From NCBI GenBank assembly GCA_946480695.1, contig CAMLKG010000054.1, forward strand, positions 1-14,592: a stretch of DNA of 14,592 nt, written 5' to 3'. Origin of the DNA: an uncultured Cellvibrio sp. GTDB taxonomy: Bacteria > Pseudomonadota > Gammaproteobacteria > Pseudomonadales > Cellvibrionaceae. The notes under the pieces were generated by a model. It did not search any database. It had not been told where the DNA came from and saw only the letters and a list, made by a program, of their open reading frames with translations. Below are positions 1 to 14,592 of this stretch, one piece after another. The number at the start of each line of letters is the position of its first letter. The stretch's first letter is position 1. Made by a program: the position numbers and the translations under genes.

Positions 1-3000
1 CAGGTTTGGTGGATGCCCTGCTGCATCATTCGAAACAGCCGGTGAGCAATTTGAGCATACTTCCAGCGGCGGAGCGCCGGCAATTGCTGGTGGACTGGAA
101 TGCGACAGCGGTGGCTTACCCGCAGGATAAATGTGTCCATGAATTGTTTGAGGCGCAGGTGCAGGCATACCCAGAACGCGCTGCATTGGTATTTGAAAAT
201 CAGACGCTGAGTTATGGCCAGTTGAATAGCAAGGCAAATCAACTGGCGCACTACCTGATGAATGAGCGCAAGCTGCAACCGGATACCTTGGTGGGTATCT
301 GTTTTGAGCGTTCATTGGATATGGTGATCGGGATATTGGCGGTATTGAAAGCGGGCTGTGCCTACGTCCCTCTGGATCCTGAATACCCCTCTGCGCGCTT
401 GGAATACATGTTGACAGATGCCCAGTTAGATACGGTGTTGACTGGCATGGCAACTCGTGTTCGTGTTCCTGTGGGAGAGAAGCAGGCGGTGTGCGTGGAT
501 GACATTTCGGTGTTCGCACAATTATCCCTTCAATCGGTGGACAATCCCGTACTTGGTAATCGGGATTCCAATCATCTGGCTTACGTGATTTACACCTCGG
601 GTTCAACTGGTAATCCGAAAGGTGTCATGGTTGAACATCGCAACCTTGTTAATTTCCTTGTCGGCATGACCGATCAACCAGGTATTGAAAGTACAGATTG
701 TTTATTGGCAGTTACCTCCACCTCTTTTGATATCCATGGCCTGGAATTGTTTTTACCCTTGGTTGTGGGAGCGAAGGTTGTTATTGCCTCGCGGATTGCT
801 ACTGCAGATCCAGATCAGCTTATTGATTTAATCAAGTCGCAATCTGTATCTATGATGCAAGCCACACCTGCTACGTGGAAAATGTTGTTGGAGGCGAATT
901 GGAAACCCGAGTCCGCGATTAAAATCCTGTGCGGTGGAGAGGCGTTAAGTCACTCACTTGCCGCTGCATTGCTCGACAGGCCAGCGGTTGATTTATGGAA
1001 TATGTACGGACCGACAGAAACTACCATTTGGTCTTGCGTGAAACATATTCGACGCGGTGAAAAACGGATTTTGACTGGAAAGCCAATCGCAAATACAACT
1101 GTATATTTGATGAACCGCGATTTGAATCCGGTCCCCATTGGCGTCGCCGGTGAGCTATTGATTGGTGGGGCGGGAGTGACTCGCGGCTATCTCAATCGAG
1201 CGGAGTTAACAGCAGAAAAATTTATTACTGATCCCTATCAAGGAAGCAGTGACGATAATAGTAGTGCTCGTTTATACCGGACTGGGGATTTGGCTCGCTG
1301 GACTGCTGAAGGCGAATTAGAATTCCTGGGCCGGATTGATCATCAAGAAAAAATCCGGGGTTTTCGTGTAGAGCTGGGTGAAATAGAAAATACACTGCTT
1401 ACTTATAACGGTGTTAAAGATGTAGTAGTAGTAGCAAAAGAGTTTGCGGCAGATGACAAGCGGTTAATTGCTTATATTGTTATTAATGAATCAGCCCAGG
1501 ATATTGCAGCAATTGATAAAAAGGAAGATGAGGAATTATTTATCGAACGTCTGCGTGAGCATTTGAACCAAACGCTGCCATACTACATGGTTCCCTCCAT
1601 ATTTGTCTCCTTGCAGTCCTTGCCTTTAACTCCCAATGGAAAAATTGATCGTAAGGCATTACCCCAACATAATCTATCCGGTATAAATGTAACCAATAAT
1701 TATCTGGAGCCAAGCGGTGATGTTGAAAAAATCATGTGTGGTATTTGGCAGGATATTTTGGGTGTCGAACAAATTGGAGTTAACCAAAGCTTTTTTGATT
1801 TAGGTGGGCATTCTCTATTATTAGTCAAAGTACAAAATCGCATAAAAGAGCAATTGGATCGCAAGATATCAATAATAGATATCTTCACTTATCCTACTGT
1901 CAGGCTTCTGGTTAATTATTTGTTAGGCCGCGAAGAGCAGGAAACACATCAATTTAAATTGCCATCACCATCAGAATACTCCACTGATTTTGCCATCATA
2001 GGTATGGCTGGTAGGTTTCCTGGCGCAAAAAATATAGATGATTTCTGGAAAAACATTTGCGATAGCGTTGAATCGCTACGCCAGTTTAGTGACGAAGAAT
2101 TAAAATCGGCTGGAATAGATGAGTCCACTTTATCAAGACCTGATTATGTTAAGTCAGGGGTACTGCTGGATGATCTGGATCTTTTTGATGCTGATTATTT
2201 TGAAATGACTCCCACAGAGGCTGACATTACCTGTCCACAACAAAGATTGTTGTTGGAATGTTCTGTAGAAGCACTTGAGAATGCAGGATATGGGGCTCTA
2301 AAAAACGAACAGAAAATAGGTGTGTTTGTTGGTGCAGGTAACAGTGCTTATTTATTAAATAATATATTGCCCAATGAAAGACTAAACAAATCCATGGGGC
2401 AAACTGCATTAATGATTGCTCTGGATAAGGATTACATTGCATCACGTATTTCTTATAAATTAAATCTAACCGGCCCAAGCATCAGTATTAATACTGCATG
2501 CTCAACATCACTAACAGCTATAGCGCAAGCATGCCTTAACTTATCTGCGGGCAATTGCAATATGGCACTGGTTGGTGCTTCAGCCATTCCTCGCCTCACT
2601 CCATATGGCTATTTTTATCAGGAAGGTAATATTCTTTCTCCTGATGGTCGTTGCTACCCGTTTGATGAAAGCGCAAATGGAACGAGATTTAGTGGTGGAG
2701 CCAGTGTCGTTTTGGTGAAAAGGCTTGAACGGGCGTTGGCTGACAAAGATACGGTGCATGCCATCATTAAAGGGATAGGAGTAAATAACGACGGTAATTT
2801 AAAGGTTGGCTACACGGCTCCAAGTGTTCAGGGGCAAGCAATGGCCATAAAAGAAGCTTTGGCTGCTTCTGCAATTGATCCTGAAAGTATCCAGTATATT
2901 GAGACTCATGGTACAGGGACCTCGTTGGGTGATCCAATAGAGATCACTGCCCTGAATAGAGCATTTGGAAAGTCCGCCAGTAAAAATACCTGTGCGCTAG

Positions 3001-6000
3001 GTGCTGTAAAAGCAAATATTGGACATCTTGATACGGCAGCCGGTATGGCAGGATTGATTAAAACGGTAATGGCTATCAAGCACAAAAAAATACCTCCCAC
3101 CATTAATTATCAACATGCGAATTCACGAATAGATTTTGAAAATAGTCGCTTCTATGTCAATACTGAAATTAAGGATTGGGTTTCAAATGGGGCTCCGCGC
3201 CGAGCAGGAGTGAGTTCTTTTGGTATTGGTGGAACAAATGCTCATATTGTTTTGGAAGAGGCTCCTTTGGCAGAAGCTGGTTTTTCGCATCGTCAATGGC
3301 GACTCCTTCTCTTATCAGCCAAAACAAGTGAAAGTTTGCAACAGGCAGGAAAAAACATAAAAACCTATCTGCACAGCACGCCCGATATTAATTTGGTCGA
3401 TGTTGAATACACACTGCAAGTGGGCCGTGAAGCTTACAATCACCGTCGCTTTATAGTGTGCGATACAACTGACAGAGCAGTTATTAAGCTGGATTCGGAT
3501 GGAGTAGCAGTTGAGAGCAAGGTAGTTGATAGCAATCAAACGTTGCCAATTGTTTTCATGTTTCCTGGGCAGGGGTCTCAATATGTAAATATGGCAAGAA
3601 GTTTATATGAGCAAGAGCCCACGTATCGTGAATGTGTGGATCATTGTGCTGATATATTGTTGTCTCATATAAATACTGATATCCGCACCATTATTTATCC
3701 AGATCATGATGATGTGGAAAATGCAAAGCAACGATTAAATCACACTGAAATATCTCAACCAGCACTCTTTGTTATTGAATACGCATTGGCAAAATTGTGG
3801 ATGTCGTGGGGCGTTATTCCCTCATCTATGATTGGCCATAGTGTTGGTGAATATGTTGCAGCATGCTTATCAGGTGTGTTCAGCCTTGAGGATGGCTTAA
3901 AGCTGATTAGCGCCAGAGGGCGTGTAATGCAAACAGTAAGCGCCGGAAAAATGTTATCTGTCCTTTTGGGAAAAGAAAATCTTGTTCCACTACTAATCGA
4001 ACATAAATGTGATTTGGCAGCAGTAAACGGTACAGGTAACTGTGTTGCTTCAGGGACAATATCCGCTATCGAGGCATTAAAATTGACGCTGGATGGCATG
4101 GATATATCCAATACCGAACTGAATACGTCACACGCATTCCACTCATCTATGATGGATGGGATTTTAGGTGAGTATAGAAATATATTGGAAACAGTAACGT
4201 TTAATAAATTGTCGATACCAATTATTTCAAATCTGAACGGTGAGGTCGCAACTGATGGTTTGCTGCAAACGGTAGATTATTGGTTAAAGCATCTGCGCAA
4301 TACAGTAGAGTTTTCACAAGGTATTGCAACTTTGTTACGGGATACACCTAAACTGTTTTTAGAAGTTGGTCCAGGCCTGACATTAAGTTCACTTGCTAAA
4401 AGGCATCCTCAATTTGGAGTTAGCGTTGCCATTGCGAGCACGCCGCATCAATACGATGACACTGATGATGAGTATTTCCTTCTGCGATCACTGGGCCAAT
4501 TGTGGCAGCAAGGGCTTGCTATTGATTGGTCTGAATTTAACAAATCATGTATGACTCATCGCATTTCTTTGCCAACCTATGCCTTTGACCGCAAGCGCTA
4601 TTGGGTTGATTCGGGTGAATTCAGTTCCGTTTTTGCCAAGAATAATTTCAAAGAAATGAATCAACAAAGTACTTGGGTGTACTTGCCCAAGTGGAAAAGA
4701 GTTTCCGTTGGGGCTGATCAGGCAGTAGTGGAAAAAAGCAATAAATGGTTAGTCTTTGTCAGTGATCTTGAGATTGGTAATCAATTGATTCGTTATCTGA
4801 CTGAGCGCGGCCAATCAGTTGTATGCGTGAAAATGGGGAGTGAGTTTATTCGTCAGGATAGTGGAAATTATTCTATAACACCTGATCAATTGCAGGACTA
4901 CGAGCAGCTTTTCCACTCATTAAAGCAAGACAATATGCTTCCGGAAAAAGTGTTGCATCTCTGGAGTGTACGTACGTTATGCAATGAGGATAGTTTGTCT
5001 TATGAAACCTTTTTACACGCACAAAAGGTTGGGGCTGATAGTGCTATCTTATTAGCAAAAGCATTGGTAAGCAGTGGATTGTCGATGATTGATGTCAATT
5101 TTGTTGCTAATAATGTGTATAGCGTTACAGGTTTCGAAAATGTTTTCTCTGAAAATTCTTCTCTCGCGGTAATTGGTAAAGTTATTACGCAAGAAACACC
5201 AAAGATAGAGTGTTATTACATCGATATTGATATAGAGGAAGCAACAAGCTCGAAGCAATCTGACAAATTAGTTAATTTGATTTGGTCTGAAACCACTTCT
5301 GAAAATCGGCAGGCGCAAGTTGCTATACGAGGGCTGCATCGGTTGGTGTTGGAGTTTGAGCACACTTACGATAATAAAGAAAAGTTGAATTCACCGCGTA
5401 TCATTCATGGTGGTGTGTATATCATCACTGGTGGGGTTGGCCAAATCGGTTTGAATTTGGCAGATCATTTAGCCAGGCAAGCACAAGCTAAAATAGTCCT
5501 CATTGGTCGCTCTGGATTCCCTAATAAATCTGAGTGGGATAGCTGGCTAACCGAAAAGGGTGAGCATAATCCGATTAGTGTAAAAATATCCAGAATACAA
5601 AGAATGGAAGAAGGTGGTGCAGAAGTATTTGTGTATTGCGCAGATGTTAGTAACTATCACTTAATGAATGAAATTTTTGAGTCTGTTGAAAATAATATTG
5701 GCAAAATTAATGGTGTTATTCATGCGGCGGGAGAGGTTAACAATGTTGTAAAACCTTTCCAGGAGGTTACTAAAGAGGATTTTAGCGAGCAGCATAAATC
5801 CAAAGTTGCTGGTGTGTTAGTTATAGATAGGATTTTAAGAAATAGGAAGATAGATTTTTGTTTGTTAATGTCCTCTATAAATGCGTTTATCGGTGGTGTC
5901 GGTTTTTCAACTTACGCATCTGCAAATATATTTATGGATTCGTTTGCGCAAAATAAATACGCACATGGAAATGAAACCTGGTTTTCAGTTAATTGGGATC

Positions 6001-7850
6001 GATGGAATTTTGATGACTCGGTAGAACGCAAAAAGGAGTTGTCAAATCTTGATGGTGTTAAAGTATTTGATTATTTAATGTCAATACCCTATGCCCCTCA
6101 GGTTCTTATTTCAAAAGTTAATCCCATGGATGAAGTAGGGGAGTCGATTGAAGAGGTAGTGACCGAGCTGAATCCAACGGAAACGTCACGAAAATTGCGC
6201 ACTGTAGAAAATGAATACGTCGCTCCCAGAAACAAAATGGAGCGTGAGTTGGTCGAGGTTTGGGAGCAGGTCTTGGGGGTAGGGAATATTGGCATCACGG
6301 ATAATTTCTTCCTGCTTGGAGGGCATTCGTTATTTGCTATCCACGCTGTGTCGAGGATGAAGGAGCTTGGAGTTAAAGTATTGTTTAAGGAATTGGTTGC
6401 ATCACCAACCATTGAAGGAATTTCTCTACTGCTAGAAAGTCGTGTATCAGAAAGCATCGACAGCTATCAATATCAATATAAGAGTGGCGATCCGATTTAC
6501 AGCATTCCAAACAGGCAATTATTATTCAAAGCGGTGTTTAGGGATCACTGGAATCAGTCTGGAATGTTAAATATATCTCATGTTAACTGCGATGCTGTAC
6601 GTGAGGCGCTGAAACTAGTTTTAAAAGAAAACCAGGGGTTGCAACATGTTTTCCATTTGGATAATGGAATGGTGCGCGAAAAAATTATTGATCCGGGTTC
6701 AGATATTCTTGAGGTCGTTGATTTTTCTCACATCACTGATGAACATGAGCTAAAAAAATCTATTGAACATCAGGCTAATGATTTGCAGGCAACATTAGAT
6801 CTGACAAGTAAATTGTGCAAATTTGTCATTTTTTATTGTGGTGAAAACGAACCCGCAAGATTCTTTTGGATCGTTCATCACTCCTTAATGGACGGTTATA
6901 GCATAAAACTTTTTGTGCAAGAATTTTTTATGCGTTACCTGCACTTGGTTGCAGGGAAGGAGTTTAACGGGCCCGCCAAAACAACATCAGTTTCAGAATG
7001 GGGAAATTATTTGCATTATTATGTGAATTCAAAGGAGATTCAAAGTGATGTGAATTATTGGGTTTCACTGCCATGGAATAAAATAGGAACTTTAATGGAT
7101 TATCCAGATGGTCTTATCAAAAACCAATCGCATGATCCCAAAAACTATGGCAATGACATTGTAATTACCAAAACCCTTGCCGAAAACTATAGTTCTTTGC
7201 TGTTAAATAACTCTCCCAGCGCTGAAAACTTTACTAGCACTAATATTATTATGACGGCGTTTACTAATGTCATCTCGATGCTGACAGAAAGTTCATGTGT
7301 TCGTTTTGATCTGGTAGTAAATGGCAGGGATAAAATAATTCGCAATGTAGATTTGGATAAAACAATAGGCTGGTTAATTGATAATATTCCTGTCGTTATT
7401 GAAGTGGATGAAAAATTAAGCCCAGCTGAAAAAGTGAATAGCTATCAACGGCAGTTAAGTGCAATTCCTGGTTCCGGGCTTACTTATAATGGACTGAAAT
7501 ATTTAAGTGAGAATGACCAGATTCGTACACAAATAGAGGCTACAGGAGATGCTGAGTTCAATATCAATATTGTTCCTCCTGCACTGCTTGAAATGGACCA
7601 GATAGATTTAACTGGTTTGCCGGCGCATCTAATCTCTCTTTCCCGTGAATCGGTTGGCCGTTGTAGTAGTTCTGAATTGACGGATATTAAATGGCCATCC
7701 TATATTCTCGTGAGCTTTAGGAATGACAAGTATGAGTTTACATGGATGTGTCGTGACAATATTTATAAAGAGACAACTATTGAGAATGCGCTCAATTTGT
7801 GGATTCAAGAGATTGTGAAACTTATTGAATTGAAAAATCTCAACTCGTAA
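1..7850 (+). CDS. Hybrid NRPS-PKS megasynthase, 5'-partial: (C)-A(Gly)-PCP-KS-AT-KR-carrier-E-like
   Basis: Reads open from the left edge (first whole codon at 3) to TAA at 7848-7850, at least 2615 codons. Residue numbers in this and the domain entries count the TTG at 6 as residue 1. That TTG is not a credible start: the first ~40 residues are the tail of a C domain, ending in the usual C-A linker (WNATAVAYP). Domains: A ~45-555, PCP ~566-642 (DLGGHSL, Ser603), KS ~660-1087, AT ~1181-1490, KR ~1556-2035, carrier ~2070-2146 (LLGGHSL, Ser2108), E-type C-superfamily domain ~2158-2610. There is no DH, ER, methyltransferase or thioesterase. Predicted action in the cytoplasm: join glycine to an upstream acyl chain, extend with malonyl-CoA, and reduce the ketone to a hydroxyl. 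The same strand, modest gap and module logic place it in one operon with the next two genes. Its GC falls from about 52% at the left edge to about 33-35% in the KR and E-like parts. Family and domain order are secure; the final product is inferred. Confidence 0.96.
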   Translation, partial: GLVDALLHHSKQPVSNLSILPAAERRQLLVDWNATAVAYPQDKCVHELFEAQVQAYPERAALVFENQTLSYGQLNSKANQLAHYLMNERKLQPDTLVGICFERSLDMVIGILAVLKAGCAYVPLDPEYPSARLEYMLTDAQLDTVLTGMATRVRVPVGEKQAVCVDDISVFAQLSLQSVDNPVLGNRDSNHLAYVIYTSGSTGNPKGVMVEHRNLVNFLVGMTDQPGIESTDCLLAVTSTSFDIHGLELFLPLVVGAKVVIASRIATADPDQLIDLIKSQSVSMMQATPATWKMLLEANWKPESAIKILCGGEALSHSLAAALLDRPAVDLWNMYGPTETTIWSCVKHIRRGEKRILTGKPIANTTVYLMNRDLNPVPIGVAGELLIGGAGVTRGYLNRAELTAEKFITDPYQGSSDDNSSARLYRTGDLARWTAEGELEFLGRIDHQEKIRGFRVELGEIENTLLTYNGVKDVVVVAKEFAADDKRLIAYIVINESAQDIAAIDKKEDEELFIERLREHLNQTLPYYMVPSIFVSLQSLPLTPNGKIDRKALPQHNLSGINVTNNYLEPSGDVEKIMCGIWQDILGVEQIGVNQSFFDLGGHSLLLVKVQNRIKEQLDRKISIIDIFTYPTVRLLVNYLLGREEQETHQFKLPSPSEYSTDFAIIGMAGRFPGAKNIDDFWKNICDSVESLRQFSDEELKSAGIDESTLSRPDYVKSGVLLDDLDLFDADYFEMTPTEADITCPQQRLLLECSVEALENAGYGALKNEQKIGVFVGAGNSAYLLNNILPNERLNKSMGQTALMIALDKDYIASRISYKLNLTGPSISINTACSTSLTAIAQACLNLSAGNCNMALVGASAIPRLTPYGYFYQEGNILSPDGRCYPFDESANGTRFSGGASVVLVKRLERALADKDTVHAIIKGIGVNNDGNLKVGYTAPSVQGQAMAIKEALAASAIDPESIQYIETHGTGTSLGDPIEITALNRAFGKSASKNTCALGAVKANIGHLDTAAGMAGLIKTVMAIKHKKIPPTINYQHANSRIDFENSRFYVNTEIKDWVSNGAPRRAGVSSFGIGGTNAHIVLEEAPLAEAGFSHRQWRLLLLSAKTSESLQQAGKNIKTYLHSTPDINLVDVEYTLQVGREAYNHRRFIVCDTTDRAVIKLDSDGVAVESKVVDSNQTLPIVFMFPGQGSQYVNMARSLYEQEPTYRECVDHCADILLSHINTDIRTIIYPDHDDVENAKQRLNHTEISQPALFVIEYALAKLWMSWGVIPSSMIGHSVGEYVAACLSGVFSLEDGLKLISARGRVMQTVSAGKMLSVLLGKENLVPLLIEHKCDLAAVNGTGNCVASGTISAIEALKLTLDGMDISNTELNTSHAFHSSMMDGILGEYRNILETVTFNKLSIPIISNLNGEVATDGLLQTVDYWLKHLRNTVEFSQGIATLLRDTPKLFLEVGPGLTLSSLAKRHPQFGVSVAIASTPHQYDDTDDEYFLLRSLGQLWQQGLAIDWSEFNKSCMTHRISLPTYAFDRKRYWVDSGEFSSVFAKNNFKEMNQQSTWVYLPKWKRVSVGADQAVVEKSNKWLVFVSDLEIGNQLIRYLTERGQSVVCVKMGSEFIRQDSGNYSITPDQLQDYEQLFHSLKQDNMLPEKVLHLWSVRTLCNEDSLSYETFLHAQKVGADSAILLAKALVSSGLSMIDVNFVANNVYSVTGFENVFSENSSLAVIGKVITQETPKIECYYIDIDIEEATSSKQSDKLVNLIWSETTSENRQAQVAIRGLHRLVLEFEHTYDNKEKLNSPRIIHGGVYIITGGVGQIGLNLADHLARQAQAKIVLIGRSGFPNKSEWDSWLTEKGEHNPISVKISRIQRMEEGGAEVFVYCADVSNYHLMNEIFESVENNIGKINGVIHAAGEVNNVVKPFQEVTKEDFSEQHKSKVAGVLVIDRILRNRKIDFCLLMSSINAFIGGVGFSTYASANIFMDSFAQNKYAHGNETWFSVNWDRWNFDDSVERKKELSNLDGVKVFDYLMSIPYAPQVLISKVNPMDEVGESIEEVVTELNPTETSRKLRTVENEYVAPRNKMERELVEVWEQVLGVGNIGITDNFFLLGGHSLFAIHAVSRMKELGVKVLFKELVASPTIEGISLLLESRVSESIDSYQYQYKSGDPIYSIPNRQLLFKAVFRDHWNQSGMLNISHVNCDAVREALKLVLKENQGLQHVFHLDNGMVREKIIDPGSDILEVVDFSHITDEHELKKSIEHQANDLQATLDLTSKLCKFVIFYCGENEPARFFWIVHHSLMDGYSIKLFVQEFFMRYLHLVAGKEFNGPAKTTSVSEWGNYLHYYVNSKEIQSDVNYWVSLPWNKIGTLMDYPDGLIKNQSHDPKNYGNDIVITKTLAENYSSLLLNNSPSAENFTSTNIIMTAFTNVISMLTESSCVRFDLVVNGRDKIIRNVDLDKTIGWLIDNIPVVIEVDEKLSPAEKVNSYQRQLSAIPGSGLTYNGLKYLSENDQIRTQIEATGDAEFNINIVPPALLEMDQIDLTGLPAHLISLSRESVGRCSSSELTDIKWPSYILVSFRNDKYEFTWMCRDNIYKETTIENALNLWIQEIVKLIELKNLNS
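138..1670 (+). other. Adenylation domain, predicted glycine-activating
   Basis: Activates an amino acid as its adenylate and loads it on the following PCP. All core motifs are present: A2 LKAGCAYVPLDP (114), A3 YTSGSTGNPKG (196), A4 FDIHGLELF (241), A5 NMYGPTE (332), A7 YRTGDLARW (424), A8 GRIDHQEKIRGFRVELGEIE (442), A10 NGKIDRKALP with Lys546. Aligning by eye to GrsA PheA, the ten pocket residues are D242, I243, L246, Q285, L308, G310, M333, I341, W342 and K546: DILQLGMIWK. This is one change from the published glycine code DILQLGLIWK as I remember it, so glycine is the prediction. The alignment is manual, so the pocket call is less certain than the domain call. Confidence 0.85.
1983..4475 (+). 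other. KS-AT didomain, malonyl-CoA-type (gene 1)
   Basis: The KS begins at FAIIGMAGRFPGA (662) and ends at SSFGIGGTNAHIVLEE (1070). The catalytic triad is intact: Cys832 (INTACSTSL), His968 (IETHGTGT), His1007 (VKANIGHL). Asn-Thr before the Ala-Cys, instead of the usual Asp-Thr, resembles KSs that receive a chain from an NRPS carrier, which fits the PCP directly upstream. The AT begins at FMFPGQGSQ (1184), with nucleophile Ser1279 in GHSVGEY and the selectivity motif HAFH (1376-1379). HAFH, together with Val after the active-site Ser, indicates malonyl-CoA rather than methylmalonyl-CoA. The post-AT linker (LPTYAFDRKRYW, 1522) closes the unit. Confidence 0.9.
4671..6110 (+). other. Ketoreductase domain
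   Basis: NADPH-dependent reduction of the beta-ketone formed by the preceding KS-AT. A degenerate structural subdomain (~1556-1790) precedes the catalytic Rossmann subdomain with TGGVGQIG (1808-1815, TGGxGxxG). Catalytic residues appear complete: Lys1933 (SKVAG), Ser1957 (MSSINAF), Tyr1970 and Asn1974 (STYASAN). The stereochemical fingerprints are not decisive. HAAG is followed by E-V-N-N where B-type KRs carry LDD, and the A-type Trp position holds Ile1963. It is probably active, but the hydroxyl configuration cannot be read from the sequence. Confidence 0.87.
6213..6443 (+). other. Carrier domain of the gene 1 PKS module
   Basis: Phosphopantetheine site Ser2108 in LLGGHSLFAIHAVSRM. It is of the PCP-like GGHS type although it serves a PKS module. 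The usual Asp of DxGGHS is Leu2103. Carriers in front of true epimerase domains typically read GGDSI; this one does not. Confidence 0.88.
6477..7835 (+). other. Terminal C-superfamily domain, epimerase (E)-like, catalytic Glu replaced
   Basis: A domain of about 450 residues closing the protein. It belongs to the condensation superfamily by HHSLMDG (His2291-Gly2297). Several features match the E subgroup rather than LCL or DCL condensation domains: IPNRQLLF followed by HWNQS (2181-2185), like the E-domain PIQxWF...HHWNQS; VDLDKTIGWLIDNIPV (2448-2463), like the E5 RTVGWFTxxYPV; AIPGSGLTYNGLKYL (2486-2500), like E6; and FNINI (2518), where E7 reads FNYLG. The E4 block EGHGRE reads V-V-N-G-R-D, so the catalytic Glu is Val2437 (codon 7314-7316). 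It acts after a KR-containing PKS module, not after an amino-acid-loaded PCP. Its role is unknown: inactive scaffold, docking element, or altered alpha-proton chemistry. Confidence 0.78.
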
Positions 7851-7986: not shown

Positions 7987-10900
7987 ATGAACACTAATGA
8001 AAACATGATAGAACAGTATCAAGATGATATTGCCGTTATTGCAATGGCGGGTCGATTTCCCGGTGCCAATAGCGTTGAAAAATTTTGGTCTAATCTTGAA
8101 CAGGAGGTAGAGTCCGTCACCTTCTTTAACCAGCAGCAGTTGCTTCAGTCTGGTGTTGACCCAGTATTGCTCGATAACCCAAATTTTGTGGGTGCAGAAG
8201 GCGTGTTGCAGGACGTTGAAAAATTCGACGCAAACTTTTTTGGGTTTTCACCAAGAGAGGCAGAATTATTAGATCCCCAACATCGCATTTTTCTTGAGGT
8301 AACCTGGGAACTTTTGGAACGTGCAGGATATAGCTCTGAAACGATAAAGGAAGTCATTGGCGTCTATAGCGGTGCTGGCGCGAGTTCGTATTTATCACGT
8401 AATTTATTAACACATCCGGAATTCGTCCGCGATGTCGGAACGTTTAAAGTCTCCCTGTCCACCGGCCAGGATTTTGTATCCACACGTGCAAGTTATAAAT
8501 TGGGTTTGACCGGTCCGAGTATTAATATTAATACGTTATGTTCATCATCAGCAGTGGCCGTCCACTATGCTCGCGAGGCACTACTGGCATATCAATGTGA
8601 TATTGCTATTGCGGGTGGTGTAACTATTTCAAACTCTCGTGAAGACGCTTTGTTTTATCAAGAGGGAGGAATAGGTTCATTTGATGGTCATTGTCGTACC
8701 TTCGATGCGAGAGCTGCAGGCACTGTAGCGGGTAATGGTATTGCACTTGTGGCATTGAAGCGCATGGAAGACGCATTGCTAAGTGGGGATCAAATACTGG
8801 GTGTAATCCGGGCTTCGGCAATTAACAATGATGGTGGCGATAAGGCCAGTTATACCGCCCCCAGCCCTGAAGGACAGGCGCGTGTAATTACCGAGACTTT
8901 AGAGATTGCCGATATTAATCCAGAGACTATCAGTTATGTGGAGGCCCATGGTACAGGCACTAATTTGGGGGATCCGATTGAAGTCGCCGGCTTGACACGT
9001 GCTTACCGTCGTTATACAGACAAAAAAAATTATTGTGGTATTGGTTCTGTGAAGACCAATATTGGCCATTTGGTTGCCGCCGGTGGTGTGGCTAGCATGA
9101 TCAAGACAATTATGGGTATGCAACATCGCCAAATTCCAGCCAGTCTTAATTTTGAGGAACCGAATCCGAAAATTGATTTTGCAAATAGTCCTTTCTATGT
9201 TGTTAATAAAACCCGGGAATGGCTTCCAACTGGTGGGGATGTCCTGCGTGCAGGTGTGAGTTCATTTGGCATTGGAGGTACCAATGCGCACATTATTCTT
9301 GAAGAGGCTCCGCAGCTTCAACCATCAACAGCAGGTCGTGCTGTGCATACTGTTATTTTATCTGCAAAAACAGCAACTGCGCTGCAGGTAATGAAGCAAA
9401 ACTTATTCGAGCATATCCGCAACAATCCGCAGTTAAATCTTGCAGATTTGGCATTTACACTACAAGTTGGTCGACATAATTTTGAGCATCGGTTTGCAGC
9501 TAACGTCGCAAGTCTTGAAGAGCTTGCATATAAATTGGATGGTGTTGACAATAAGTATTGTAGTGCTTCGGTGCAAAAAAATACCTCGCGCGAGTTATGT
9601 TTTATGTTTCCGGGGCAGGGTAGCCAACATTATGATATGGCTCGGTTTATTTATGAAACCGAGCCAACTTTCAAAAATCACATTGATAACTGTTGCAGCA
9701 TTCTAAAGCCACTTCTTAATCTGGATCTACGGGAATTACTCTATCCGGCAACAGGCTTGGAGGCAGACGCGCAAGAACAATTAAAACAAACCTTGTTTTC
9801 TCAATTGAGTTTGTTTGTAACGGAATATTCTCTGGCACAACTTTGGATGAGTTGGGGATTTAAGCCGGATCAAATGATTGGGCATAGTATTGGTGAATAT
9901 GTTGCTGCATGTTTAGCTGGTGTGTTTAGCCTTGAAGATGCACTCGGCATTGTTGTGTGCCGTGCAAAGCTAATGGCACAAATGCCAACCGGTACAATGA
10001 TCTCTGTTCCTTTGAGTGAGCAGGAGATAAAACCATACTTGCACGATAGTATTTGGCATTCCGTTCAGAATGCACCGGCGATACAGGTTTTATCAGGAAC
10101 GGAAACTTCTATAGCAGAATTGATTCAACGATTGGAAAATGATGGTATTACCGTAACACGGTTGCATACATCTCATGCATTCCATTCCGGGATGATGGAT
10201 CAAGCGCTGGCTCCATTCATGGATTTTCTGAGTCAGGTCAAGCTGCATCCACCCATACTAAAATTTATATCCAACCTTAGTGGTACCTGGGCGGGTAATG
10301 AAGTTTGTGAACCATCTTATTGGGTTGATCATCTGCGTTTTACGGTTCGTTTTAGCGACGGTGTAGCGACCCTGTTGGCAGCTGACCCACAACAATTTTT
10401 CCTTGAGGTAGGGCCGGGCCACACCTTGACATCATTGGTTCGTGCTCAGTTATCGGCAACCTCATTGGTAGCAAACTCTTTACCGCATCCAGCTAATAAT
10501 ACGCAAACATTGTGGACATTGGGCTCCGCTTGGGCAGCTATGTGGTTATCGGGTAATCGCTTGAATTGGTCGGCCTTATACAGTGGCCAACAACGCAGTC
10601 GTTTGTGTCTACCGACTTATCCGTTTGAGCGGAAGCGTTATTGGATTGATGCTGCTCCACATGGTGCCCGCCAATTTAAACCGGATATTATTGTATCGGC
10701 TGGTCAAGCTGTCGATGTTCCCACCACCGCTATTCTCGAGGGCGTACTGCGTGTGGAGCTGGCACCTAACGCCATGGTTGATGCTGAATTATCCGGAACT
10801 CAATGGCAGCAAGTTGTCTCGTTGCAAACTGAATTTGCGGAAAAAATAAAATCCGTTCTGGGAAGCTCTTTTTCCATTCATGCATCAGGTTTGGAGTTGC

Positions 10901-11280
10901 GTTTGGATTCAAGCGGTGAGATTGGGGCCGAAGGTTCCGTTCCGTCATTAGGGCTATCTGCTGAGCACTCTCGGCCACAAGGTTTGGTTCCTTATACTGA
11001 ACCCCAAACACATATTCAAAAAATACTTGCGGCTCATTGGCAGGAAGTATTGGGATATGCTCCAGTCGGGATACACGACAATTTTTTTGAAGTGGGTGGG
11101 CATTCACTCATGGCCGCTGCACTTGTGACACGTACTCGAAAAGATTTTGATACTGAAGTGTCGCTCCGTGAATTATTGGAAACCCCTACGATTGCTGAAA
11201 TTTCTGATTTATTGGAAAACCGCATCTGGCTGCAGGAAAACCAACAACAGGAAGAAGGTGTTGAGGTACTGGAGCTATGA
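7987..11280 (+). CDS. Monomodular type I polyketide synthase: KS-AT-carrier, no reductive domains
   Basis: 1097 residues from an ATG with a good ribosome binding site to TGA at 11278-11280. The KS (~14-441) starts at IAVIAMAGRFPGA and has Cys185 (INTLCSSS), His321 (VEAHGTGT) and His361 (VKTNIGHL). The AT (~537-850) has FMFPGQGSQ (539), nucleophile Ser634 in GHSIGEY and HAFH (730-733), so malonyl-CoA is predicted. A region of about 110 residues (~890-1000) with one predicted helix and no recognised enzyme leads to a PCP-like carrier (EVGGHSL, Ser1040). With no KR, DH or ER, the expected output is a beta-ketoacyl thioester. Only about 13 residues precede the KS, so there is no coiled-coil docking helix. 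The C-terminus is acidic and hydrophobic (EEGVEVLEL), as expected of a docking peptide for the next protein. The stop overlaps the next start (ATGA), indicating translational coupling. Family and domain calls are secure. Confidence 0.97.
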   Translation: MNTNENMIEQYQDDIAVIAMAGRFPGANSVEKFWSNLEQEVESVTFFNQQQLLQSGVDPVLLDNPNFVGAEGVLQDVEKFDANFFGFSPREAELLDPQHRIFLEVTWELLERAGYSSETIKEVIGVYSGAGASSYLSRNLLTHPEFVRDVGTFKVSLSTGQDFVSTRASYKLGLTGPSININTLCSSSAVAVHYAREALLAYQCDIAIAGGVTISNSREDALFYQEGGIGSFDGHCRTFDARAAGTVAGNGIALVALKRMEDALLSGDQILGVIRASAINNDGGDKASYTAPSPEGQARVITETLEIADINPETISYVEAHGTGTNLGDPIEVAGLTRAYRRYTDKKNYCGIGSVKTNIGHLVAAGGVASMIKTIMGMQHRQIPASLNFEEPNPKIDFANSPFYVVNKTREWLPTGGDVLRAGVSSFGIGGTNAHIILEEAPQLQPSTAGRAVHTVILSAKTATALQVMKQNLFEHIRNNPQLNLADLAFTLQVGRHNFEHRFAANVASLEELAYKLDGVDNKYCSASVQKNTSRELCFMFPGQGSQHYDMARFIYETEPTFKNHIDNCCSILKPLLNLDLRELLYPATGLEADAQEQLKQTLFSQLSLFVTEYSLAQLWMSWGFKPDQMIGHSIGEYVAACLAGVFSLEDALGIVVCRAKLMAQMPTGTMISVPLSEQEIKPYLHDSIWHSVQNAPAIQVLSGTETSIAELIQRLENDGITVTRLHTSHAFHSGMMDQALAPFMDFLSQVKLHPPILKFISNLSGTWAGNEVCEPSYWVDHLRFTVRFSDGVATLLAADPQQFFLEVGPGHTLTSLVRAQLSATSLVANSLPHPANNTQTLWTLGSAWAAMWLSGNRLNWSALYSGQQRSRLCLPTYPFERKRYWIDAAPHGARQFKPDIIVSAGQAVDVPTTAILEGVLRVELAPNAMVDAELSGTQWQQVVSLQTEFAEKIKSVLGSSFSIHASGLELRLDSSGEIGAEGSVPSLGLSAEHSRPQGLVPYTEPQTHIQKILAAHWQEVLGYAPVGIHDNFFEVGGHSLMAAALVTRTRKDFDTEVSLRELLETPTIAEISDLLENRIWLQENQQQEEGVEVLEL
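8026..10536 (+). other. KS-AT didomain, malonyl-CoA-type (gene 2)
   Basis: Homologous along its length to the KS-AT of gene 1, but not a recent copy. Even the strongly conserved AT active-site block shares only short exact DNA runs (for example 16 nt at 3844-3859 and 9890-9905). The residue before the active-site Cys is Leu (NTLCSSS) where almost all KSs, including that of gene 1, have Ala. All catalytic residues are otherwise present, and the AT carries HAFH. Confidence 0.88.
11008..11226 (+). other. Carrier domain of gene 2
   Basis: Ser1040 in FFEVGGHSLMAAAL is the phosphopantetheine attachment site. It is PCP-like, like every other carrier in the window. It is followed by an ~17-residue tail ending in VEVLEL that likely docks to the gene 3 product. 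Confidence 0.88.
11263..11267 (+). promoter_or_regulatory. Ribosome binding site of gene 3
   Basis: GAGGT inside the end of gene 2, ending 9 nt before the ATG at 11277. A second purine run, GGAG (11271-11274), is too close to the start. Together with the ATGA overlap this fits coupled translation. Confidence 0.5.
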
Positions 11281-11441
11281 ACATAACTCAATTGTTTAAA
11301 AATCTTCGTATGCACAATGTTGTATTGCGGCTCAAGGACGAAAAATTATTATGTGAGCTGCCTAAACAGGGTATTCCTCCTGAATTAAAAGAAGCAATGC
11401 TTGCTAATCGCCATGAGCTGAAGGCTTACGTCGCGCGTTTG
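11277..11441 (+). other. N-terminal TubC-type beta-hairpin docking domain
   Basis: The first ~55 residues show the pattern of TubC_N domains: a helix (ITQLFKNLRMHNV), a beta-hairpin (VVLRLKDEKLLCEL), then IPPELKEAMLANRHELKAYV, matching the family's typical LTPEL...R..I...L ending. In tubulysin-type synthetases this fold binds a short C-terminal peptide of the upstream protein. The gene 2 C-terminus (GVEVLEL) looks like such a peptide. Pairing is inferred. Confidence 0.75.
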
Positions 11442-14400
11442 ACCAGCGGTGAAAATTCAAAGGCCGATATTCCTTCTCGCGCCCCCGGTTTGACCAAATT
11501 GCCATTGTCATCAGCCCAGCAACGTCTTTGGCTGATTGATCAGGTTGAAGAAGGCGAGAGTCATTACAACACCTATTTTGTTTTTCGTGTTAAGGGTGGT
11601 TTAAATCTGGATGCATTAAGACGTGCATTTGCTGATATCGTATGTCGTCATGAGGCGTTGCGCACTTGCTTCGTCCAAATAGATGGCGAGCCTGTTCAAT
11701 CTATTATGGATATAAATGCGGTACGGGCAGAAACTATCGTTCATGAATGCTTTCTACCTGAATCTATTCAACAAGACAAAGTGCAACTACAGAAATTTAT
11801 TCTACAAAAAATTCATCATAAGTTTGATTTAAGTAGAGATTTATTAATTCGTATTACAGTTATATCACCTGCTGAAAATGAATATCTGGTGATCTTTGTT
11901 ATACATCATATAGCATCTGACGGTTGGTCCGGCGCAGTGCTTGCCAACGAGCTGAATCATTGTTATCAATCCCAATTGGATGGCCTGCCTGCTCCCTTGC
12001 CTCCCATTTCCTTACAGTATGCTGATTTTGCATTATGGCAGCAGGCGCAGGCTGCTAACGGCTTCCTTGATCGTTCAATTTCATATTGGTGTGACAAGCT
12101 TGCTCATTTACCCCTTATGCATAATTTACCATTGGACAAGCCTCGGCCGCAGGAGCAATCCTTTCATGGCGGCCGGGTGCAACAGCTATTGCCTGTAGCT
12201 TTGCATCGCAACTTACAAGAACTTGCGGCGAAATATAATGTAACTATGTTCATGCTGCTGGAAACTGCCCTTGCTGTGCTGGTCAGTTATTGGAGTCGTG
12301 AGCGTGATATTGCATTGGGAACACCTATAACTGGTCGTATTCATCCGCAGCTTGAGCCCCTAATTGGTTTTTTTGTTAATACTTTGGTGATACGTACAAA
12401 AATAGAACCTGAACAGGCTTTCAGTGTTTTATTGCGTGAAAATAAAGAAACTATTTATGAAGCATTCAATCATCAAGAGTTACCATTTGATAAGCTCGTT
12501 GAAATTATGCAACCGCCGCGAATCGCCGGGGTAAGTCCATTATTTCAAATTTTATTTGTTATGCAAAATAATAAAAAAGCCAATCTTAAATTGGCGGAAT
12601 TACAGGTTGAGGATATAGAGTTTGATGGGCAGATCGTAAAGTTTGATATTGAGCTTCATGCGACGGAAAAAGAAACTGGTCTTGAATTGTCATGGCTTTA
12701 CGCCACCAGTTTATTTGAGCAGCGCAGCATTGAACATTTGAGTGAAGCTTTTTTCTGTTTACTCGAAAGCATTATCGCTAATCCTGAATCTGAAATTCGT
12801 TCTCTGCCATTATTACCGGATGCGGATAAACAGCAATTAAAGATATGGGGACATGGCCCGTCAAGTCCCGCTTTTGTGGATACCGTACATCAATTGTTTG
12901 AGCGTCAAGCGTCTCTTAATCCACAGCAGATAGCGTTAAAATTCGACGGTCAACAACTGAATTACAAGGATGTAAATCGTGAGGCTAATCAGTTGGCTCA
13001 TGAATTGTTGAAGCGTGGCATCATGCCGGACGATAAGGTCGTTTTATTGACTGATCGCTCTTTTACAATGGTTATCTCCATCCTGGCAATCCTTAAGGCA
13101 GGCGGATGCTACGTTCCACTCGATCCGGCTTTGCCAGAAGGAAGATTGAACACTATTTTGAGTGATTTGGGCGAAGTTACAGTTTTAACAAATTTTGCAC
13201 TACAACATATTCCAAGGGGATTGGGATGTAACGTACTTATACTGGATGACGTGGCATTTCAGCAGGCACTGCAACAGAATTCTGACCTAAATCCCGATGT
13301 GAAAGGGCTTGCCAGTAGTCATTTGGCATATGTACTTTATACCTCTGGTTCGACGGGAAAACCCAAAGCAATAGAAATGCCCCACGGTCCGCTAATCAAT
13401 TTGATTCAGGGGGTGGTTCAGGCCGAGCCGGAATTACAAGGACCTCATACCTCTATCCAATTTGCGTCAATTGGATTTGATATGAGTTTTACCGATATAT
13501 TCCTGACTTTTTCTGGCGGCGGTTGCCTGTTATTGATTGATGCAGAAAGCCAGTATGATACAGCCTTTTTGGCCAAACTTATTCAGGCGCAAAATGTGTC
13601 CGCATTGAACTTGCCTTACGCCATGCTGCAAAGTTTGTCGGACTATTGTTTACAGCATCAGCTTTTTTTAAAGTCTTTGCAGTGTATTATTTCTACTGCA
13701 GAACAACTTAAAATCACTAAAGCTATTCGCACGTTTTTCGAAAATCACCCAATGTGTCGCTTGATAAACCATTACGGCCCATCGGAAACTCACGTGATTA
13801 CTGCGCTGTCCCTGGAAAGGAACCCATCACTATGGCCTGAATTTCCTTCGATTGGAAAACCTATAGCAAATACGAGTTTTTACTTGTTGGATGACAGCAT
13901 GAAACCAGTACCTATTGGTGTTGTTGGTCAACTATATTTCGGTGGTAATTGTCTTGCCCGTGGATATATGAATCAACCAGAGTTGACTGCAGAGCGGTTT
14001 GTTTATAACTCATTGGATAAAAACTCATCATCTCGATTGTATAATACCGGTGATTTAGCTCGATTTCTTCCCGATGGAAGCCTTGAATTTTTTGGTCGTA
14101 TTGATAACCAGATTAAAATTCGTGGGTTTCGGGTTGAATTGATTGAGATTGAAAACCTGTTACTTTTACATGAAAAAATAAAAGATGCAGTTGTGCTAGT
14201 AAAAACTGCTAACGATGACGAAAAATATTTGGTTGCATATTTAACGATTAATCCGGTTAGTGATTTTTGTACTGATGATATGCAGTCCGAAAAAAATATT
14301 AATAGCATAGATACGGATGAGTTGCGGTTTTATCTCGGAAAATCACTGCCGAACTACATGATTCCTTCTGCTTTTGTTTTTATCGATCAATTTCCATTGA

Positions 14401-14592
14401 ATATAAATGGCAAAGTTAATCGTAATGCTTTGCCGGATCCCGATTTTTCAAATCAACAAAAAGTGTATGTCGAGCCGAAGACTGATGTTGAAAAAAAGTT
14501 GTGCGAAATATGGCAGGAAATCCTGCGAATCGACCGAGTATCAACAGCGGATAACTTTTTTCAAATCGGCGGACATTCATTATCTGCAGTAA
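11277..14592 (+). CDS. NRPS, 3'-partial: TubC-type docking domain-C-A-PCP
   Basis: I translated this frame by hand from the ATG at 11277 to the right edge. It is open throughout, 1105 codons and continuing. The start is chosen because the ATG overlaps the gene 2 stop and because the docking domain begins at once. Domains: N-terminal docking ~1-55; C ~75-505; A ~534-1053; PCP from ~1065, with Ser1101 in FFQIGGHSL, cut four residues later by the window edge. It should accept the beta-ketoacyl chain from gene 2 and join it to an amino acid, giving a beta-keto amide. Downstream modules or a release domain lie outside the window. The A domain has a non-standard pocket and some off-consensus motif residues (YNTGDLARF, NGKVNRNALP), but its catalytic Lys1046 is present. 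Gene identity is secure; substrate is not. Confidence 0.96.
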   Translation, partial: MNITQLFKNLRMHNVVLRLKDEKLLCELPKQGIPPELKEAMLANRHELKAYVARLTSGENSKADIPSRAPGLTKLPLSSAQQRLWLIDQVEEGESHYNTYFVFRVKGGLNLDALRRAFADIVCRHEALRTCFVQIDGEPVQSIMDINAVRAETIVHECFLPESIQQDKVQLQKFILQKIHHKFDLSRDLLIRITVISPAENEYLVIFVIHHIASDGWSGAVLANELNHCYQSQLDGLPAPLPPISLQYADFALWQQAQAANGFLDRSISYWCDKLAHLPLMHNLPLDKPRPQEQSFHGGRVQQLLPVALHRNLQELAAKYNVTMFMLLETALAVLVSYWSRERDIALGTPITGRIHPQLEPLIGFFVNTLVIRTKIEPEQAFSVLLRENKETIYEAFNHQELPFDKLVEIMQPPRIAGVSPLFQILFVMQNNKKANLKLAELQVEDIEFDGQIVKFDIELHATEKETGLELSWLYATSLFEQRSIEHLSEAFFCLLESIIANPESEIRSLPLLPDADKQQLKIWGHGPSSPAFVDTVHQLFERQASLNPQQIALKFDGQQLNYKDVNREANQLAHELLKRGIMPDDKVVLLTDRSFTMVISILAILKAGGCYVPLDPALPEGRLNTILSDLGEVTVLTNFALQHIPRGLGCNVLILDDVAFQQALQQNSDLNPDVKGLASSHLAYVLYTSGSTGKPKAIEMPHGPLINLIQGVVQAEPELQGPHTSIQFASIGFDMSFTDIFLTFSGGGCLLLIDAESQYDTAFLAKLIQAQNVSALNLPYAMLQSLSDYCLQHQLFLKSLQCIISTAEQLKITKAIRTFFENHPMCRLINHYGPSETHVITALSLERNPSLWPEFPSIGKPIANTSFYLLDDSMKPVPIGVVGQLYFGGNCLARGYMNQPELTAERFVYNSLDKNSSSRLYNTGDLARFLPDGSLEFFGRIDNQIKIRGFRVELIEIENLLLLHEKIKDAVVLVKTANDDEKYLVAYLTINPVSDFCTDDMQSEKNINSIDTDELRFYLGKSLPNYMIPSAFVFIDQFPLNINGKVNRNALPDPDFSNQQKVYVEPKTDVEKKLCEIWQEILRIDRVSTADNFFQIGGHSLSAV
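11499..12791 (+). other. Condensation domain, probably LCL-like
   Basis: Motifs in order: C1 LPLSSAQQRLWLIDQ (75), C2 RHEALRT (124), C3 HHIASDGWS with His211 and Asp215, C4 YADFALWQ (248), C5 IGFFVNTLVIR (363), C6 HQELPFDKLVE (399), then SPLFQILFVMQN (420). The set looks complete and active. The donor should be the beta-ketoacyl chain of gene 2, so L/D subtyping has limited meaning here. Confidence 0.9.
12876..14435 (+). other. Adenylation domain, substrate unassigned, proline-lineage look
   Basis: Core motifs: A2 LKAGGCYVPLDP (606), A3 YTSGSTGKPKA (688), A4 FDMSFTDIF (734), A5 NHYGPSETHV (831), A7 YNTGDLARF (922), A8 GRIDNQIKIRGFRVEL (940), A10 NGKVNRNALP with Lys1046. Pocket residues aligned by eye to GrsA: D735, M736, T739, N778, I805, T807, H832, V840, I841, K1046, giving DMTNITHVIK. 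The framework (FDxSFxDIF, AEQLxIT, HYGPSETHV) resembles proline-activating domains (codes like DVQFIAHVVK), but five of the ten positions differ from that code. I do not assign a substrate. Confidence 0.88.

Follow-up and report, generated by a model that had tools for sequence, protein, structure and literature searches.

The window analysed here, a stretch of 14,592 nucleotides from an uncultured Cellvibrio sp. (assembly GCA_946480695.1, contig CAMLKG010000054.1), carries three megasynthase genes, the first of which ends in a domain that resembles the epimerization (E) domains of nonribosomal peptide synthetases (NRPSs) and has valine at the position of the catalytic glutamate. This domain and its close relatives form a small family, named E* here. 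In the domain orders given below, A stands for adenylation, C for condensation, T for thiolation (carrier), KS for ketosynthase, AT for acyltransferase and KR for ketoreductase. The features of the window are as follows.

3..7850, forward strand: gene 1, A–carrier–KS–AT–KR–carrier–E* (domains by Pfam), with its 5' end beyond the window
5412..6005, forward strand: KR domain, gene 1 residues 1804–2001 (Pfam PF08659, E 6.7e-39)
6204..6425, forward strand: carrier preceding E*, with the motif GGHSL (limits approximate)
6474..7847, forward strand: E* domain, residues about 2158–2615, the terminal domain, without a COM tail
6876..6896, forward strand: intact HHSLMDG, residues 2292–2298; the second His is residue 2293 (bases 6879–6881)
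7311..7331, forward strand: LVVNGRD where LEGHGRE is expected; the GTA codon of Val2438 (7314–7316) is at the Glu position
7987..11280, forward strand: gene 2, KS–AT–carrier
11277..14591, forward strand: gene 3, TubC_N docking domain–C–A–carrier, with its 3' end beyond the window

The Condensation-family Pfam match at residues 2180–2506 is the last match of the gene 1 protein. Gene 2 follows after a gap of 136 bases, and its KS match (Pfam) begins at residue 13, which leaves no space for an N-terminal docking domain. The A domain of gene 3 departs from the usual core motifs (it reads STAEQL and NHYGPSETHV), so that a simple pattern did not capture its code.

The E* family and its altered active site

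Passages of PMC7551626 assign the active site of epimerization to a His/Glu pair, and the BacC changes H4755A and E4893A serve as E-inactivating changes in passages of PMC12402864. An earlier note on this DNA had read an intact HHSLMDG, a valine at the Glu position of a VVNGRD block and a GGHSL carrier in front of the domain, and all three readings are borne out; the residue called Val2437 there, if counted from the TTG at base 6, is the Val2438 that is counted here from base 3.

A search of 5.8 billion proteins listed 69 matches, of which four were close (43–47% identity) and the others reached at most 29%. The close matches differ in what precedes E*: P0005 has the order C–A–T–KS–AT–KR–carrier–E*, the same as in gene 1, P0006 is a three-module NRPS ending in E*, P0007 (named Cellvibrio sp.) is a C–A–T–E* protein with a luciferase-like insert in its A domain, and P0008 is formyltransferase–A–T–E*. 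Scanning of a genome collection added L001 (3110 aa) and L002 (1941 aa), which share a contig of Cellvibrio mixtus J3-8. An eighth copy, in G030, a genome of the same taxonomic family, is frameshifted and lies beside transposase-like genes. The E* family thus comprises seven full-length copies and one decayed copy. No further E* was found in the 144 family, 390 order, 369 class and 398 phylum genomes sampled, where up to 11 candidates per genome were scored in the family sample and up to four in the others. After C. mixtus, the G030 fragment matched best (5.8e-93); the next values were 2.9e-51 for the family sample and 1.8e-55 for the order sample, and the weaker family and order matches inspected either had EGHGRE or belonged to another Glu-less group. 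Phages gave no E* match. A short-protein search with alignment A2 gave no score for any of 6603 candidates; it carries little weight, as it also missed ordinary E fragments. A literature search of open-licence papers turned up no title dealing with an E family that lacks both Glu and COM. On this sampling, E* is rare.

The Glu and His of EGHGRE are absent in all seven full-length copies, so the loss of Glu is real, and a one-off mutation or sequencing error is rejected. Across the six non-redundant E*, the Glu position reads V/I/I/L/T/A, the Gly position V/V/S/V/T/V and the His position N/N/L/N/T/S, while the GR of the motif is retained. As the replacements vary from copy to copy, this side of the active site is apparently free. 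The comparison class of 89 ordinary E domains was defined by having Glu, so that its presence in 89/89 is by definition; the 89/89 count for His was not set by this definition. Against this class, 31 positions (Lys2444, Arg2447 and Arg2584 among them) are fixed in 6/6 non-redundant E* and found in less than 10% of the E domains, which makes simple decay unlikely, and these changes, together with those of tail, carrier and TIGR01720 score given below, look like a change of function rather than decay. The earlier note had called the domain repurposed, and this stands as the best reading given the 31 invariants; a choice among a scaffold, a gatekeeper and a new catalyst goes beyond the data.

A Glu supplied from a neighbouring position, which by the earlier note would speak against its reading, was rejected. 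The residue two positions upstream of the Glu site is acidic in five of the six non-redundant E* (Thr in L002), and the same residue is Asp or Glu in 57/89 ordinary E domains that keep the catalytic Glu.

The C-terminus and the preceding carrier have also changed. Each of the seven E* closes its protein and stops 26–32 residues past a C-terminal landmark, without a COM tail; many ordinary E loci were fetched with short flanks, so the frequency of E as last domain has no counterpart figure. Together with seven other Glu-less E-like domains, 14/14 are terminal and stop 26–43 residues past the landmark, whereas, of the 31 Glu-bearing E domains that stand at a C-terminus, 28 extend 45–67 residues past it, mostly with a TPSDF-type tail, and three do not (Mann-Whitney p 8e-7, kinship uncorrected). 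The carrier motif before E* is GGHSL in six copies and GGQSL in one; before ordinary E domains it is GGDS in 87/87 readable carriers (2/89 unread), and GGDSL (five) or GGNSI (two) before the other Glu-less E-like domains. The tail and carrier counts include near copies (L002/P0007, L019/L024 and P0058/P0059/P0062). The NCBIfam model TIGR01720, with a cut-off of 74.2 bits, gave 26.7, 18.9 and 26.3 bits in the three E* tested and 138.3, 144.7 and 158.9 bits in three E domains. Judged by the lost Glu, the TIGR01720 scores below the cut-off and the missing COM tail, E* would not be a functional E domain.

Several observations concern the surroundings of these genes. A luciferase-like monooxygenase domain sits in the adenylation region of two E*-bearing NRPSs, L002 (3518–9343, forward strand) and P0007 (Pfam on P0007). 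In the C. mixtus cluster, a chitin-synthase-like glycosyltransferase gene (L027 13856–15823, reverse strand) is flanked by a FAAL gene on one side and an NRPS gene on the other. At the decayed G030 locus, a short open reading frame resembles, by eye, the N-terminal part of this glycosyltransferase and is adjoined by a GH116-type glucosidase gene; the stretches concerned are L025 1598–1909 and 3133–6453 (forward strand). The G030 locus also holds a carrier followed by another divergent E-like domain (L025 2–1597, forward strand; VHHLVSD, with PDEQRAF for EGHGRE). L052 and L053 share a cluster of a formyltransferase–A–T–Glu-less E-like protein (1642 aa, in P0008-like order), a carbamoyltransferase, a methyltransferase-like gene, an A–C protein and an Antibiotic_NAT family gene.

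Origin within the epimerization branch and the preceding units

E* is a clade from the epimerization branch of the condensation superfamily. In a quick tree of 74 rows (no bootstrap, with a long-branch warning), E* falls inside a 44-row E group with an SH-aLRT of 100, and all 30 C and DCL rows lie outside this group. A structure model of E* (pLDDT 83.3, pTM 0.78) was used for a fold search, in which PDB rows 1–11 all hold E domains, rows 10–11 being tied with the first C row. Since the motif-4 indel also sides with E domains, the derivation from E proposed in the earlier note holds, and the phylogeny that it had called for does not group the domain with LCL or DCL condensation domains; an LCL/DCL domain mistaken for E is rejected by the tree. 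By the tree, E* is not a condensation domain, and by its HHxxxDG it is not an X or Ct domain. It is a variant within the E branch, so far seen rarely. Three sets of other Glu-less E-like domains (L018, L019/L024 and L034) may be sister to E*.

The units in front of the seven E* are three KR-carriers with a HAFH-type AT, which we take to be malonyl-specific, one Gly-like module (in P0006), two Thr-like modules and one aromatic-like module, the AT motifs and module codes having been read by eye. On these readings, four of the seven carriers are predicted to bear a unit without an alpha stereocentre (three malonyl-type and one Gly-like). The units appear to share no obvious chemistry. The earlier note had tied the domain to a polyketide synthase (PKS) KR-carrier; this tie, and with it a PKS-specific adaptation, falls because four of the seven E* stand behind NRPS carriers. 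A common beta-hydroxyl substrate is likewise rejected: it would suit the KR-carriers and the Thr-like modules, but the Gly-like and aromatic-like modules do not agree with it.

The earlier note had found no established precedent for an E domain behind a KR-carrier, and in this it was mistaken. A plasmid match led to a Nostoc KS–AT–KR–carrier–E protein with Glu, a GGDS carrier and a COM-type tail, and a search with its KR-to-E part gave 4090 matches. Among the best 120 of these, 91 have no adenylation motif (among them P0126 and P0153, whose last match is a C domain, and seven that fail the KS pattern), and the Glu site holds Glu in 82, Asp in five and another residue in four. The order is therefore widespread and usually Glu-bearing, and among these best 120 the named KS–AT–KR–carrier–E proteins are mostly cyanobacterial. 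P0074 and its relatives resemble gene 1 in having a terminal E-type domain behind a PKS KR-carrier; they differ from E* in their Glu, in their GGDS carriers (87/87 readable among the 91) and in a COM-type tail (54 of the 61 checked).

Five of these proteins (P0143, P0148, P0151, P0157 and P0171) read LDENGRE, with Asp at the Glu position, and have GGDS carriers. Two KR-containing proteins outside the E* search, P0117 (QGHGRQ) and P0149 (VDSGRG), end in Glu-less, apparently tail-less E-like domains.

Possible roles of a terminal E-derived domain

That E* is non-epimerising is well supported, as far as sequence can predict it: epimerization is unlikely because Glu is lost and four of the seven preceding carriers are predicted to lack an alpha stereocentre. 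The drift at the Glu-side positions also speaks against a new catalyst having become fixed on that side. As to what the domain does instead, the reading that we favour, with confidence evenly balanced for and against, is that the folded E* may be kept as a protein–protein interaction platform at the C-terminus of megasynthase subunits, serving either hand-off or recruitment. In the first option, E* would help the downstream protein to take over the chain; in the window the recipient would be the KS of gene 2, which lacks a docking domain. In the second, E* would recruit a partner in trans, as the X and CaeA2 Ct domains do. In both, the carrier-bound substrate would be left unchanged by E* itself. 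COM docking through a tail is rejected, as E* has no such tail. The junction between E* and gene 2 has neither a TubC_N domain nor an acidic tail; at other junctions in these operons, TubC_N (Pfam) stands opposite an acidic C-terminal tail upstream (tails by eye). In C. mixtus the contig stops 116 bases past the 3110-aa E* gene, so that no KS–AT–carrier protein resembling gene 2 was seen behind E* there.

Comparison of L001 with its ortholog P0005 gave 72–94% identity per 100 residues up to residue 2700 and 44–45% thereafter, and the break falls at the linker between carrier and E*. The simplest reading is that the whole E* domain would have been exchanged as a unit. L002 and P0007, in turn, are 90% identical in E* and 87–99% per 100 residues in the rest of the proteins. 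A broader proposal, which we put forward tentatively and rather doubt, is that E* would represent a functional class new to the condensation superfamily: an E-derived, COM-independent C-terminal docking module between subunits (including carrier to KS) that orthologous synthases exchange as a cassette and that forms part of a larger E sister group lacking both Glu and tail.

Several points weigh against a platform. The strongest is that all seven E*, the seven other Glu-less E-like domains, P0117 and P0149 retain both the second His and the Asp of HHxxxDG, which exceeds what a bare scaffold needs and leaves room for His-based chemistry. Downstream of the 1941-aa E* protein of C. mixtus lies an exporter-like gene (by eye), so that this protein possibly has no docking target, and no partner of E* was found. 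The exchange was seen in one pair, and the approximately unbiased (AU) test is compatible with plain sisterhood of the two E* (p 0.33), so that fast divergence could also account for the break.

The retained residues are what would be expected if E* were an active His-dependent enzyme of C-domain type, an acyl transferase or a hydrolase, in which the second His moves the chain to a nucleophile and Glu is not needed, an account that we consider possible, on the doubtful side. E* is always last, no thioesterase follows the 1941-aa C. mixtus protein within the stretch read, and the Glu-less relatives in L051 and L054 belong to the last synthase gene of the stretches fetched. Yet P0005 has Asn in place of the first His, motif E7 shows I, F or Y among E* at its Tyr position, and the preceding substrates have no obvious common trait. 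The next gene of the window, moreover, offers a KS that could accept the chain directly, and P0008 resembles a starter module, from which releasing the chain would hardly be useful.

E* could also be vestigial, its function lost when the module changed and its fold kept only for protein stability, which we judge unlikely. There is nothing to invert behind the Gly-like module of P0006 or behind the KR-carriers, many active-site neighbours drift, and the G030 copy is frameshifted beside transposases. Module 2 of LgrA uses glycine, in which it resembles the Gly-like module that precedes E* in P0006. For linear gramicidin, a passage of PMC8150014 calls the E domain of this single protein inactive. 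Set against a vestige are the 31 E*-specific invariants, the open frames of all seven copies, and the E* of L002 and P0007, whose identity is near that of the rest of the proteins. Continued epimerization with another residue replacing Glu, for which the E fold, the kept HHxxxDG and the acidic upstream residue could be cited, is very improbable, as that residue is ordinary in true E domains and Thr in L002, the carriers are not GGDS and predicted alpha stereocentres are often absent, and TIGR01720 scores are far below those of E domains.

Relation to known systems and significance

Compared with the E domains of TycA, TycB3, GrsA, BacC and PvdL, E* has lost the Glu and His of EGHGRE and the COM tail, follows carriers that are not GGDS, scores below the TIGR01720 cut-off and has its own 31 invariants. 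The closest functional parallels may be the X domain of glycopeptide NRPSs, which is described in passages of PMC8949500 as a condensation-superfamily domain without the normal chemistry that recruits partner enzymes in trans, and the Ct domain of CaeA2, which, according to passages of PMC8149447, has lost that chemistry and recruits a partner enzyme in trans. Both have lost HHxxxDG or its His, whereas E* keeps the second His and the Asp. The other Glu-less E-like domains (L018, L019/L024, L034, P0058/P0059/P0062, P0117 and P0149) are, like E*, terminal and without a COM tail, but they lie outside the E* clade, and five of the seven whose carriers were compared follow a GGDS carrier.

E* lost the catalytic Glu together with the COM tail, and so offers a natural test of the purpose that an E fold serves after losing its chemistry. 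Product prediction from domain order, in which an E domain signifies a D-residue, would mislead for E* clusters. If confirmed, an exchangeable terminal domain may be of use in megasynthase engineering.

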